A stretch of 29,225 bases of DNA from a virus: positions 1 through 29,225 of the IMG/VR virus record IMGVR_UViG_3300050821_005892; one strand, 5' to 3'. The notes beneath the pieces were generated by a model, which was not told the DNA's origin, did not search any database, and was given only the letters and a program-made list of their open reading frames with translations. This document shows, in pieces, positions 3,333 through 25,289 of the stretch; positions within the stretch are counted from its first letter, which is position 1; every line of letters begins with the position of its first letter. Made by a program: the position numbers and the translations under genes.

Positions 3333-4328
3333 TCAGGCGGCTCCGGCGCGCTCTATGGCGTCGATCTCGTCGAACAGTCCCGGCTCGTCGGGCACGTTCT
3401 GCTGGTCGGCGAGCGCAGCCATGTTCCGGACGGCCTGGCGGAAGTAGCTCGCCTTAAGCTCGACGCCGATTCCGTTGCGCCCGCCGCGCACGGCCTCGTA
3501 CACCTCGGACCCGACGCCCATGAAGGGGGTGAGCACCCGTTCTCCGGGGTTGCTCCACAGGGTCAGGCAGCGCTGGATGACGTCCAGCTGAAGCGGGTGG
3601 ACGTGCTTCTCGTCGTCCTGGTCCCGCGCCTCCCGGAACGGCAGCACGTTGTCGAGGCGGATGTCGTCCCAGAACGCCGAGGCGTACTGCCGCCAGATCC
3701 AGTGGGAGTAGCGGTTCTCGGTTTGCTTGCCGGTCCACCCGCGATAGGGCAGCAACTCGGCGGGCGGGACACGCTCGCCGGCGTACTCGGTCAGACCTGC
3801 GGGGTGTGCGATCGGGACCGGGTTGTCGCCGCGGCGCCGGAACGCCAGCAGGTAGTCCGCAGAGGCCACCGAACAGCGGGACGAGTCGTCGACGATCGTC
3901 CGGTGGGCCAGCCCCTTGGTCAGGGTCCGGTTGCGGACGGTCAGCGGTTCCTTCCAGATGTGGTAGCGGGCGATGTAGTCGAACCCGGCCTCCTGGTGGA
4001 GGCGGATGATGTCGCCGGGGAAGTCCCGAAGGCAGTCGCGGCCGGTGTTGCCGCTGGGTACGTCCATGCAGTGCACGGCGGTGATACGCCCCGGCATCGT
4101 CAGCCGGCGCAACTCCCGCACCACGAACGCGTAGTGCTCGAAGAACTCCTCATAGCTGCGGGCATTCGACAGGTCCCGCTCGCTGGACGAGTAGTGGTAC
4201 AGGCCGGCGAACGGGGGCGAGTACAGCGACAGGTGGATCGACTCGTCCGGGAGGTCGGGCATGACCTCCATGCAGTCGCCGTTGTAGAGCGCGTACTGGT
4301 CGGTGATGGCCTGGTTCAGGACAGCCAT
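3333..4328 (-). CDS. DNA methyltransferase (amino-group type, SPPF motif)
   Basis: A 331-aa AdoMet-dependent DNA methyltransferase. The catalytic motif IV is SPPF (37-40) in the LYSPPFAGLYHYS context. The AdoMet-binding motif TPFMGVGSE (267-275, FxGxG) comes after it, preceded by HPLQLDVIQRCL and followed by GIGVELKASYF. This order (IV before I) is that of the beta class. SPP[FYW] is commoner among N4-cytosine enzymes, DPPY among N6-adenine enzymes, so m4C is the first guess. The ATG at 4328 lies inside the end of the helicase gene (13-nt overlap). The middle (about 100-230) would be the target-recognition part. Together with the helicase it may form a two-gene modification unit. No endonuclease gene is seen beside it. 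Confidence 0.88.
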   Translation of the reverse strand: MAVLNQAITDQYALYNGDCMEVMPDLPDESIHLSLYSPPFAGLYHYSSSERDLSNARSYEEFFEHYAFVVRELRRLTMPGRITAVHCMDVPSGNTGRDCLRDFPGDIIRLHQEAGFDYIARYHIWKEPLTVRNRTLTKGLAHRTIVDDSSRCSVASADYLLAFRRRGDNPVPIAHPAGLTEYAGERVPPAELLPYRGWTGKQTENRYSHWIWRQYASAFWDDIRLDNVLPFREARDQDDEKHVHPLQLDVIQRCLTLWSNPGERVLTPFMGVGSEVYEAVRGGRNGIGVELKASYFRQAVRNMAALADQQNVPDEPGLFDEIDAIERAGAA

Positions 4329-21936: not shown

Positions 21937-22133
21937 GCCGCACCCGCCATATCCGAAGCGGCATTCTGCTCGGCGGTCAGCTTGGCGACTGCAGGGGCGA
22001 AGATTCGGCGCAGCCGTTCGACGGTCACCGGGCTCGGTTCGGGGGCTGCTGCGACGAGGCGGCCGATATCGGTCATGACCTGCTCGCCGAGCCGGGCGGC
22101 CATCGCCTCGCGGGAGAACTCGCCCGTGGTCAT
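21933..22133 (-). CDS. Small hypothetical protein, 66 aa
   Basis: A 66-aa helical protein (FSREAMAARLGEQVMTDIGRLV, then SPVTVERLRRIFAPAVAKLTAEQN). ATG at 22133 overlaps the upstream stop (ATGA), and its stop overlaps the GIY-YIG start, so it is the second gene of the early operon. The second half reads like a short helical DNA- or protein-contact module, but no family is recognised. Excisionases and anti-repressors often occupy this place; there is no sequence proof. Confidence 0.74.
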   Translation of the reverse strand: MTTGEFSREAMAARLGEQVMTDIGRLVAAAPEPSPVTVERLRRIFAPAVAKLTAEQNAASDMAGAA

Positions 22134-22468
22134 GCCGCAACCGGCTCGGCGTCGTCGATGTCGATGACGCGCAGCACGGCCGCGAGCGCCTCCTTCTCGG
22201 TGACTCCGTGGATCCGCTCGTAGCAGCGGACGACGGCTCCGAGGGTGAAGATGCTCGGGTACTCGGCGCCGTTGTCGCTGCCGATGTCGGCGAAGCGCTG
22301 CCGGTGCAGCCCTGCGGCCCTGGCGATGCGGGCGAGGTTGGGCTTTCCGTCCTTGGAGTGCCGTAGCTCGTCGTGGCCTGCGGCGATCAACTCGAAGACG
22401 TTGTGTTCCAGGCCTAGCGGGAGTCCGCGTCGGGGTGGTCTGAGTCCTATCGAAGTGACGTCCGTCAT
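22130..22468 (-). CDS. HTH protein, first gene of the early operon (Cro-like position)
   Basis: A 112-aa protein with a helix-turn-helix at about 44-63 (NLARIARAAGLHRQRFADIG) and a second helical part (FTLGAVVRCYERIHGVTEKEALAAVLRVIDID). It is divergent from the repressor at 22732 and opens the leftward early operon, the place of a Cro-like or early regulator. No Shine-Dalgarno is seen. A -10-like TAGTCT lies 7 nt before ATG 22468, so the message may be leaderless. A 16-bp operator-like sequence covers the start codon. An upstream frame to 22582 would run through the operators and is rejected. Confidence 0.78.
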   Translation of the reverse strand: MTDVTSIGLRPPRRGLPLGLEHNVFELIAAGHDELRHSKDGKPNLARIARAAGLHRQRFADIGSDNGAEYPSIFTLGAVVRCYERIHGVTEKEALAAVLRVIDIDDAEPVAA

Positions 22469-22505
22469 GTAGGACAGACTAGCCCATGGGTCCTGCGTAT
22501 AGGAC
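22444..22505. promoter_or_regulatory. Operator array at the early leftward promoter
   Basis: Three 16-bp sites share GTCCTA-N4-TAGGAC. The best is GTCCTGCGTATAGGAC (22490-22505, 11 of 12 arm bases). GTCCGTCATGTAGGAC (22460-22475, 10 of 12) covers the start codon of the early gene. The poorest, GTCCTATCGAAGTGAC (22444-22459, 9 of 12), abuts it directly. They overlap the -35 region, start point and 5' end of the early gene, so a bound repressor would shut the operon. Confidence 0.75.
22476..22504 (-). promoter_or_regulatory. Leftward early promoter
   Basis: On the minus strand, TCCTAT (22504-22499), a 17-bp spacer and TAGTCT (22481-22476) lie immediately before ATG 22468. The predicted start point is at or next to the A of the ATG. 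The -35 is not canonical, but the same TCCTAT-N17-TAGNNT layout recurs at the opposing promoter. Confidence 0.5.
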
Positions 22506-22659
22506 TGATTTTGATAACGGAAAGGTAAAGCTTGGGGTGCGCGCTGCGGTGCACGCGCCCCGAAATCTCCCCAGTGGGCCATGGCGGTCTAGGCCACTGG
22601 CGTTTATGTTCTCGATGTCGGGAACGTCTCGGAGTGCGCGCCACCGGAGCGCGCCGAAT
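22506..22659. other. Divergent leader with two hairpins
   Basis: This 154-bp spacer between the two operators holds no convincing gene; a 66-codon plus-strand frame there (22486-22686) looks spurious. A 9-bp stem with one bulge, CCAGTGG-G-CC (22571-22580) against GGCCACTGG (22592-22600), encloses an 11-nt loop. A weaker GC hairpin lies at 22534-22561. They may be DNA sites for a protein or parts of upstream antisense RNA. Confidence 0.45.
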
Positions 22660-22689
22660 GTCCTATGCCTAGGACAGAGCGGGTAGGGT
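22660..22689 (+). promoter_or_regulatory. Repressor promoter with perfect operator
   Basis: GTCCTATGCCTAGGAC (22660-22675) is a perfect inverted repeat with 6-bp arms. It covers a TCCTAT -35-like box (22661-22666); 17 bp further is TAGGGT (22684-22689), the -10. The repressor ATG at 22732 follows after about 35 nt with its own ribosome site. Autoregulation is likely. Confidence 0.65.
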
Positions 22690-22731: not shown

Positions 22732-23211
22732 ATGACGCACACCAACCCTGTGGCCGAAGCGTGGGGCAAATGGCTCAGCGCACGCCTGGCCGCCCTCGAC
22801 ATGTCGCAAGCGGACCTACGCCAGCAACTCGACGCGGCGGGTACCCCGACGAAAAAACAGACCGTATCGCAATGGGTCAACGGCCAGAACAGCACAGACC
22901 CCAACACCGCCGCAGCGATCGCCGCCGTCCTCAATGCCGACCCGCTCGAAGCCCTCCGCGCCGCCGGCCACGAGCCCATCGCGGACCTCATCGCCACCCT
23001 CATGGACGGACGCCCCCCACGACCGGCCGGCGCCACACCCGACCCCATCGCCGCAGCCATCCAGGACATCCTCGACGACAAACGCCTGACGCCAGTGGAG
23101 CAGCGTGACGCCCTCGCACATCTCAATCGGCGCGTGAAGAGCGTCCTCGCCGAAGTCAACGGAATCATCGACGCGATCATCGCATCCAGGGGTGATGTCG
23201 AGTCCGCATAG
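22732..23211 (+). CDS. HTH-type phage repressor (immunity repressor candidate)
   Basis: A 159-aa protein with an XRE-like DNA-binding domain at about 10-70: LSARLAALDMSQADLRQQLDAAG, TVSQWVNGQNSTDPNTAAAIAAVLNAD. The C-terminal part (DDKRLTPVEQRDALAHLNRRVKSVLAEVNGIIDAII) is helical and may dimerise. No peptidase (LexA-like) domain is present. The ATG at 22732 has AAGGCGGG 7-8 nt upstream; an ATG at 22693 would lie at the -10 and is less likely. It faces away from the early operon across the operator array and is the natural candidate to bind GTCCTA-N4-TAGGAC. Lysogeny control is inferred from layout. Confidence 0.83.
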   Translation: MTHTNPVAEAWGKWLSARLAALDMSQADLRQQLDAAGTPTKKQTVSQWVNGQNSTDPNTAAAIAAVLNADPLEALRAAGHEPIADLIATLMDGRPPRPAGATPDPIAAAIQDILDDKRLTPVEQRDALAHLNRRVKSVLAEVNGIIDAIIASRGDVESA

Positions 23212-23217
23212 AAGAGG

Positions 23218-23235
23218 TAGGACATCGAACGTCCT
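23218..23235. promoter_or_regulatory. Outward-facing copy of the operator half-sites
   Basis: TAGGAC (23218-23223) and GTCCT (23231-23235) lie 7 bp apart, in reverse order to the operators at the switch. They sit 6 bp after the repressor stop and before the membrane-protein gene. They could be a further repressor site, but with only 11 matching bases chance is possible. Confidence 0.35.
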
Positions 23236-23329
23236 GACGCCAAGGTTGTTGAGGCTTCACAGGCCTTTGATCGGGCCCTAGCTTGGACATATTCACATGG
23301 TGGTCACTTGGGGAGAGCTGGGGAAGACA

Positions 23330-23858: not shown

Positions 23859-25289
23859 CTAATACGTGAAAGCGATCGCATACCGGTCCGGCGTGATCTT
23901 CCTCGCGCCGAGCGAATACGCCTTGTTCAACTGCACCGTCATCACCGCACGGATCGCCTCCCTGCGCTGCGGGAGATCAAGCTCCTCCCACACGGCCCGC
24001 GCTTCGGCACACGCCAGCCGCCGGAGCACCGGGGAGACATCCGTCTCCCGCACCTGCGTGTAAGCGGCATCGATCAGCGGCTGCAGGTTCGCCTCCAACT
24101 CGGACATCGCAGCCAGCGACAGTCGCCGCAACCCGAACGCCGTCCTCGCGTCATCCAACTCGATCTGCATCCGGGCGGCCTCGGCCATTGCGGCTTTCGC
24201 CTGCTCCTCGATACCAGTGCGCACGAGGGAAGCGGCGAAACCCGGCTTCTCCGCATACTCCAGGAGCGCTTCCTGCACAATGTCGTCGAGTTTGTAGACC
24301 ATCATCGAGCAGCAGAAGTCGGTCACGCACGTGTACGCCTTGTGGCCACGGTTGTTCCGCACCCGGATCAGGCCGCCGCACTGGGGTGTCGCGATCCCCG
24401 ACAGCAGCCAGTGGACTGCGTTGTCCTTCATCGTCTTGCGTCCCGGATTGGTCAGAGTGCGCTCGATCGCGGCATATACGGCCTCATCCTCGATGATCGC
24501 CTTCCATTCCGCCTTCGCGACGACCCCCTTCTTGCCGTGCTGCCGCTTGCCGATGTACGTCGGCTTCAGCAGCGTCCGCTTCACCATCTCGGCCGTCCAC
24601 GGCCCGGCCCCCGTCGGCGACCGCAGCCCGCGTTCGTTGAAGTCCTTCGCGATCCTGTAGGTCGTCTCACCGCCATACACACGGGCCGCCATCTCGCGGA
24701 CCACCACAGCCTCCGGCTCGTACACCACCTGCTCGATCAAATCGCCCGACGCGGGGTCGTACTCCCGCCGGTACCCGAACGGTATGCGCCCGTGCGGATG
24801 GCCCTGCGCTGCGAAACGACGTGTGGTTCGCAAAACCCTGTCCCTGATCTGATCGCTCTCGGTCTCAGCCTGCACGGCATCCCGCGCCGAGTTCGCCCGG
24901 TCGGACGTCTTGCTCATGTCGTAGATCGTGTCGTTGTAGCACAGCAGCACACCGGTCTCCAGGCACAGCCTGCGCAGCTTGACGTACACCTCGAGATCCC
25001 GGTAGGCGCGTGAGGCCTCCCAGTACACGATGACGTCGGCCTCGCCGCGCTGCAGAGCCTCGACCATGGCCTCGTAGTCCGGTCGCGACTTGCGGGCGTG
25101 CCGCGAGGCACTCCGGTCCGGATCCTCATACCGGCCCACGATCACCCAGTCGCGCTCATCGCAGATGCGTTCGTTCTCTTCGTTCTGCGCCGCGACGGAT
25201 GTTCCGCGGCCCTTCGGGTCCCTGGAGACGCGCCCATAGGTGAAGGCGCGCAGCTGGTTCTGTGTCGCCGGCAGAGTGCTGAGTCTCAT
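23859..25289 (-). CDS. int: Large serine recombinase (phage integrase)
   Basis: A 476-aa serine integrase that joins attP and attB. The resolvase domain (about 14-160) starts with FTYGRVSRDPKGRG, where Ser22 is the nucleophile, and contains DWVIVGRYEDPDRSASRHARKSRPDYEAM and ADVIVYWEASRAYRD. The recombinase domain (about 165-290) has IPFGYRR and GLRSPTGAGPWTAEMVKRTLLKPTYIG. A zinc ribbon (CGGLIRVRNNRG...C, with DFCC) and a coiled-coil stretch follow, as in phiC31-type enzymes, although the protein is shorter than phiC31 Int (about 600). It starts at ATG 25289 and ends with TAG. It shows this phage is temperate. Confidence 0.95.
   Translation of the reverse strand: MRLSTLPATQNQLRAFTYGRVSRDPKGRGTSVAAQNEENERICDERDWVIVGRYEDPDRSASRHARKSRPDYEAMVEALQRGEADVIVYWEASRAYRDLEVYVKLRRLCLETGVLLCYNDTIYDMSKTSDRANSARDAVQAETESDQIRDRVLRTTRRFAAQGHPHGRIPFGYRREYDPASGDLIEQVVYEPEAVVVREMAARVYGGETTYRIAKDFNERGLRSPTGAGPWTAEMVKRTLLKPTYIGKRQHGKKGVVAKAEWKAIIEDEAVYAAIERTLTNPGRKTMKDNAVHWLLSGIATPQCGGLIRVRNNRGHKAYTCVTDFCCSMMVYKLDDIVQEALLEYAEKPGFAASLVRTGIEEQAKAAMAEAARMQIELDDARTAFGLRRLSLAAMSELEANLQPLIDAAYTQVRETDVSPVLRRLACAEARAVWEELDLPQRREAIRAVMTVQLNKAYSLGARKITPDRYAIAFTY

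Follow-up and report, generated by a model that had tools for sequence, protein, structure and literature searches.

Known immunity regions and the present locus

In phage lambda the CI repressor carries a C-terminal peptidase domain of the S24/LexA-like type, and the order of operator strengths is not one in which the strongest consensus sits at the repressor's own promoter. Around this classical example a variety of arrangements has been described. Operators of lambda-type regions are tripartite, according to a study devoted to mycobacteriophages (PMC4557955). In the same study, the operator of mycobacteriophage BPs is placed between the -10 and -35 boxes, with 12-bp palindromic half sites of variable spacing; its rep/cro region supports integration-dependent immunity, and phages phiC31 and L5 display 18-30 dispersed sites (PMC4557955). 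Phage PY54, a telomere (linear-plasmid) phage, has an immB region where both the cI and cro mRNAs were found to be leaderless by RACE and where the one site bound by Cro, a 16-bp palindrome, lies upstream of cI (PMC4488713).

The DNA considered here, which we call the window, is an entire virus record, a contig of 29,225 bases corresponding to a 29-kb phage fragment. Family searches place a GIY-YIG protein, a RecE/YqaJ exonuclease, a DnaQ-like exonuclease, a serine integrase (23859-25289) and a GH25 endolysin near the locus. Annotated proteins related to the exonuclease and the integrase come mostly from phages of Gordonia, Mycobacterium, Arthrobacter and Streptomyces, all at less than 60% identity; together with base composition, they indicate that the host is probably an actinobacterium. 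Next to the integrase and to an early operon lie the gene of a helix-turn-helix (HTH) repressor and its divergent partner, and one operator motif is shared by their two promoters. We are quite confident that this locus would serve a temperate phage, probably an actinophage, as its immunity region, organized as a divergent CI/Cro-type switch with a leaderless lead lytic gene. The earlier note had proposed a lysis-lysogeny switch, a reading supported by the divergent pair and by shared dyad operators that are conserved together with it in a relative, the viral contig L024.

The general plan is that of lambda, with a divergent HTH repressor and lead lytic gene and shared operators over both promoters. 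It differs in the distribution of its operators, which is not tripartite, with a single one for the repressor promoter and two, perhaps three, for the lytic side, in a repressor devoid of a peptidase domain match, in a lytic-side mRNA predicted to be leaderless, and in a best consensus located at the repressor promoter, in both phages. With PY54 it shares a 16-bp palindromic operator and a leaderless cro mRNA (predicted here, mapped by RACE there); there, however, Cro binds its single site upstream of cI, cI and cro are both leaderless, while here this is predicted for the lead gene alone, and the phage is of the telomere type. Finally, the locus resembles BPs in its small actinophage repressor and in its divergent promoters, both with operators, but the BPs operator stands between -10 and -35, whereas ours cover the -35 boxes and a start codon. 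In integration-dependent immunity of the BPs kind, attP lies within the gene of the repressor.

Operators and promoters

Four sites match the dyad GTCCTA-N4-TAGGAC with 0, 1, 2 and 3 mismatches, respectively, exactly the set of one perfect, two good and one poorer abutting 16-bp operator that had been claimed. O1 (22660-22675, GTCCTATGCCTAGGAC) is perfect and covers the -35 of the repressor promoter; O2 (22490-22505, GTCCTGCGTATAGGAC) covers that of the leftward early promoter; O3 (22460-22475, GTCCGTCATGTAGGAC) covers the start codon of the leftward gene; the candidate O4 (22444-22459, GTCCTATCGAAGTGAC) abuts O3 within the leftward coding region. Conservation in L024 sustains O1 to O3; the fourth site, with its three mismatches, cannot by itself be told apart from chance.

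The cluster exceeds chance. Across the record 12 sites have at most three mismatches, when shuffled sequences contain 4.9 on average and never more than 11. For an unbiased score, every 6-N4-6 dyad word was allowed, the mismatches at three of its sites within 360 bp, none overlapping another, were added up, and the lowest total was retained. The switch region scores 3, a value reached in none of 400 dinucleotide shuffles; when the record is divided into 241 overlapping 360-bp windows, the two that cover the switch obtain this score and no other does, the next score being 4. The earlier note had also proposed to scan the whole phage genome for the 16-mer. This yields no excess within the 29-kb fragment: the remaining 8 of the 12 sites are scattered, poor and at chance level. 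Dispersed sites of the phiC31/L5 type are thus not in excess outside the switch in this record, itself a fragment, and the 134-kb record of L024 has five sites with at most two mismatches, against six in a reversed control. Genome-wide stoperator-like sites were rejected on these counts, which are at chance level in both records. Just past the repressor stop codon (23219-23236) we observed TAGGAC...GTCCT in outward orientation, for which inspection by eye revealed no counterpart behind the repressor gene of L024. In both phages O1 is preceded, at a distance of 5-6 bp, by another dyad, rich in G+C and differing in sequence, GCGCGC-N7-GCGCGC in the window (22636-22654) and GCGCAC-N4-GTGCGC in L024 (8723-8738).

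The two promoters read TCCTAT-N17-TAGNNT exactly, with the operator over the -35, as had been proposed. The putative repressor promoter (22661-22689, forward strand) is TCCTAT-N17-TAGGGT, and the leftward early promoter (22476-22504, reverse strand) TCCTAT-N17-TAGTCT; they are the two matches to the pattern in the whole record when at most one mismatch is allowed, for 0.08 expected. In L024 the repressor promoter keeps its -35 and five of six bases of its -10 (TAGGAT), while the early promoter keeps its -10 intact (6/6) and has TCCTGC as its -35. The mirror-image layout that had been put forward consequently holds for operator placement, kept in both phages, and does not hold for the -35 sequence of the left promoter. 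O1 and O2 each end 8 bp before their own -10, at both promoters and in both phages. Since TCCTAT is not conserved on the left side in L024, the constraint would bear on operator placement: as far as the sequences go, the mirrored TCCTAT follows from operators set 8 bp upstream of each -10. A sigma-70 consensus scan listed no promoter, an Rfam search no RNA element, and the search for a strong terminator returned one terminator-like site, O2 itself, for 0.8 expected.

A homologous switch in a distant relative

L024, a contig of 133.8 kb, was found by scanning viral contigs with the operator-plus-minus-10 pattern. This retrieved 20 stretches. Protein profiles confirm one of them, L024, as a true homologue; for the remaining 19, neither a repressor nor a lead-protein homologue is present in the surrounding DNA examined. 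Protein profiles independently gave the same viral contig and no other. A scan for the start-codon operator pattern gave L024 and L041, the latter lacking a good consensus site. The two phages are well diverged, with repressors 37% identical and lead proteins 55% identical.

The operators stand out against this divergence. O1 is identical at 14 of its 16 positions (arms 12/12, centre 2/4), O2 in 11 of 12 arm positions and none of the four central ones, and O3 at 15 of 16 (arms 11/12, centre 4/4), its centre holding the start codon. Taken together, the arms of O1 to O3 are 34/36 identical, against 50/120 for unconstrained intergenic bases (28/73 and 22/47 in the two stretches outside named elements); for whole sites, 40/48 identical positions differ from the intergenic background with a Fisher p of 5e-7, the comparison being with one independent relative that shares the operators. 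The candidate O4, which overlaps coding sequence, is identical at 11 of 16 positions and keeps GTCC-N8-TGAC. Also maintained are the operator-to-minus-10 spacing, the start codon inside O3, the absence of a ribosome site, the 30 bp separating O2 from O3, and the rank of O1 as best consensus match. The centres of O1 and O2 are 170 bp apart in the window and 157 bp in L024, so that DNA looping between O1 and O2/O3 finds no support in a conserved phasing.

The switches of the two phages adjoin different integrases, serine-type in the window and tyrosine-type in L024 (9336-10763), the latter judged from its translation and not from a family search. That homologous switches have such different neighbours suggests exchange of modules.

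The candidate repressor and the lead early protein

The candidate immunity repressor (22732-23211, forward strand) has 159 residues. It has an N-terminal HTH_3 domain, which passes Pfam's cut-off, and matches several PHROG families of transcriptional repressors, the best being phrog_3949 at 1.2e-8. In an AlphaFold model the N-terminal helix-turn-helix domain is predicted with confidence, and a long helix forms the C-terminal part; among the fold matches, for all of which the Foldseek E exceeds 0.001, are HTH regulators, for example the N-terminal domain of TP901-1 CI. No family match to a peptidase domain was found and the C-terminus is predicted to be helical, which separates this protein from lambda CI proper. 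A putative recognition helix, KQT(V/A)SQW, is kept between the window and L024. We rejected a leaderless repressor starting at ATG 22693, because no more than 3 nt separate this codon from the -10; the start at 22732, in contrast, is preceded at 10 nt by an AAGG that is also kept in L024.

The lead early gene (22130-22468, reverse strand) encodes 112 residues matching nothing in Pfam, PHROGs or NCBIfam, without an HTH family match, and its structure model is poor (mean pLDDT 47); a Cro role is therefore proposed from its position.

As single sequences neither protein matched viral contigs, and sequence searches of the PDB gave nothing useful. Blastn and tblastn for the window switch returned no match in 50,697 phage records, where the L024 lead protein had none either and the L024 repressor nine weak records. 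In 72,556 plasmid records tblastn gave no match to the lead protein and two weak ones, at 31% in Apilactobacillus, to the repressor. The repressor profile run against genome contigs gave 59 stretches and no relative, and that of the lead protein one weak match (E 3.3e-4) within a 392-residue open frame among 396 genomes of one phylum.

A predicted leaderless lead gene with a putative operator over its start codon

The leftward ATG (22468-22466, reverse strand) lies inside O3, 7 nt after TAGTCT, and none of the words AGGA, GGAG, GAGG or AAGG is found 4-12 nt upstream of it. In L024, likewise, TAGTCT ends 7 nt before the ATG, without a ribosome site. The proposal that the early gene lacks a ribosome site and has its start codon covered by an operator is thereby borne out; the mRNA is predicted to be leaderless, beginning at or next to the ATG.

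Is this feature more widespread? We surveyed ten lead genes (window, L024, pMLP1, L005, MoxS-R1, TinyDot, Fairfaxidum, Paola, Brujita and Dori), a convenience sample and not a random one. The leaderless signature, TANNNT at 6-7 nt and no ribosome site, is present in five (window, L024, pMLP1, L005 and TinyDot); three have a ribosome site (MoxS-R1, Fairfaxidum and Dori), and Paola and Brujita have neither. The start of the MoxS-R1 lead gene was taken one base off, its ribosome site remaining evident, and the L005 repressor was left out. The background is 6 of 137 other annotated genes from five of these phages, ribosome sites being defined by six words there and by four for lead genes. Without the window and its homologue L024, the proportion (3/8) differs from the background rate with p = 0.004 in this non-random sample.

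In several cases the start codon is itself under a repeat or dyad: O3 in the window and L024, a 20-nt repeat (2741-2760) in pMLP1, a 19-nt inverted-repeat arm (4282-4300) in L005, and a dyad with perfect 7-bp arms in Brujita. The tally depends on strictness, because weaker dyads also cover the starts of other genes, including the lead genes of Paola (5-bp arms), MoxS-R1 and Dori. The repeats of TinyDot are direct and upstream of the start. These cases suggest a recurrent theme in the switches of actinophages, namely a lead lytic gene that is leaderless and whose start codon lies under a repeat or dyad.

The Micromonospora phage pMLP1 (L029) is an instructive parallel. Its lead HTH gene has TAGGCT 6 nt before the ATG and no ribosome site, with 20-nt repeats 27 bp apart (2741-2787), one of them over the start codon of this predicted leaderless gene; in contrast, the operator-like sequence is unrelated and the repressor similarity distant. 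Homology between the two lead proteins was considered and is not demonstrated (hhalign probability 0.9%). The pMLP1 record (AY150027) labels the repressor-like region beside the HTH gene 'excisionase'. At the level of titles and abstracts, in a literature that includes few subscription papers, we found no description of a leaderless actinophage switch of the present arrangement, and novelty is not claimed.

How the switch might work

We propose that the 159-residue HTH_3 repressor (rightward) and the 112-residue lead early protein (leftward) are divergently transcribed, and that repressor dimers on O2 and O3, 30 bp or about three helical turns apart, would cover the early -35 and start point, shutting off the leftward early operon. 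O1, over the repressor's own -35, would mediate negative autoregulation. With an early mRNA starting at or next to its AUG, O3 would lie over both the transcription start and the start codon. The lead protein, in the Cro position, may compete for the same sites. We infer repressor binding, its dimers and their cooperativity, the start points and the Cro role.

In both phages O1 is the site closest to consensus, which points to tight autoregulation or else to use by the lead protein. The latter leads to another view, on the whole improbable, where the operators would primarily serve the 112-residue protein, Cro- or excisionase-like, with O1 as its site for shutting off the repressor. Cro of PY54 does bind just one 16-bp palindrome, located upstream of cI (PMC4488713); yet it is the 159-residue protein that has an HTH family match, not the lead protein, and two of the three good sites are on the lead protein's own promoter.

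It is distinctly less probable that the leftward gene is transcribed from another promoter, with an untranslated leader, the overlap of its ATG with O3 being incidental. Coding constraint on the residues MTDV could explain part of the identity of O3, but the GTCCT of O3 is also kept upstream of the ATG, free of such constraint, and TAGTCT 7 nt before the ATG, together with the lack of a ribosome site, is maintained in L024.

The operator motif is not particular to phages. Ten stretches of genome contigs match the operator plus minus-10 pattern, and five of these (L031, L032, L035, L036, L039) are one Corynebacterium locus, where a regulator gene is preceded by two GTCCTA-N4-TAGGAC sites separated by 20 bp (one site with one mismatch in L039). 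This gene has TATAGT 6 nt before its ATG and is predicted to be leaderless; a family check, which covered L036 only of the five, gives HTH_3 for the regulator and Fic for the adjacent gene. Because this HTH_3 locus carries the same motif, the 16-mer is not diagnostic of the present phage switch, and one may imagine an autoregulated pair of the plasmid or toxin-antitoxin type instead of a lysis-lysogeny switch. We find this very unlikely, with integrase, recombination and lysis genes around the switch, no toxin family match for the lead protein, and next to nothing similar to either protein in the plasmid records. Dyads due to chance are scarcely conceivable: the eight further poor sites do sit at chance level, but none of 400 shuffles matched the cluster, and conservation in L024 already refutes this explanation.

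A conserved block between the promoters

Comparison with L024 added to the phage immunity switch an element absent from the earlier note. Between the divergent promoters, amid a diverged stretch, lies a bipartite block (22580-22610, forward strand), CATGGCGGT-N9-TGGCGTTTATGTT, its halves at 22580-22588 and 22598-22610, with 22 of 22 bases identical in L024 at the same spacing. It can be read as TGGCGG-N17-TATGTT (22582-22610), a promoter-like N17 spacing directed at the repressor; the scan for consensus promoters did not return it. Scanning for the pattern gave 90 stretches. Among loci searched with profiles, where the element was listed for those above 60% G+C, the switch was present in the L024 contig only. 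The block is a candidate for a third promoter, or else may bind another protein.

A further step, which we take tentatively and with more doubt than conviction, would make it a third promoter, of the establishment type, or another regulator's site, reading through O1 into the repressor. Associated with the start-codon operator of a leaderless lead gene, this would amount to a distinct design of actinophage switch, where the start-codon part is reused with different operator sequences (window and L024, pMLP1, L005).

What the locus tells us

Known views of such switches are not overturned by this locus, which looks otherwise like an ordinary CI/Cro-type control switch. What it provides is a precise, testable candidate operator in a lineage of uncultured phages, the switch proteins of which are without a match among the named phages of the collection, while a diverged relative, L024, shows which bases of the switch matter. 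Should the block between the promoters prove to be a promoter or a regulator's site, it would, in combination with the start-codon operator, define a distinct actinophage switch design.
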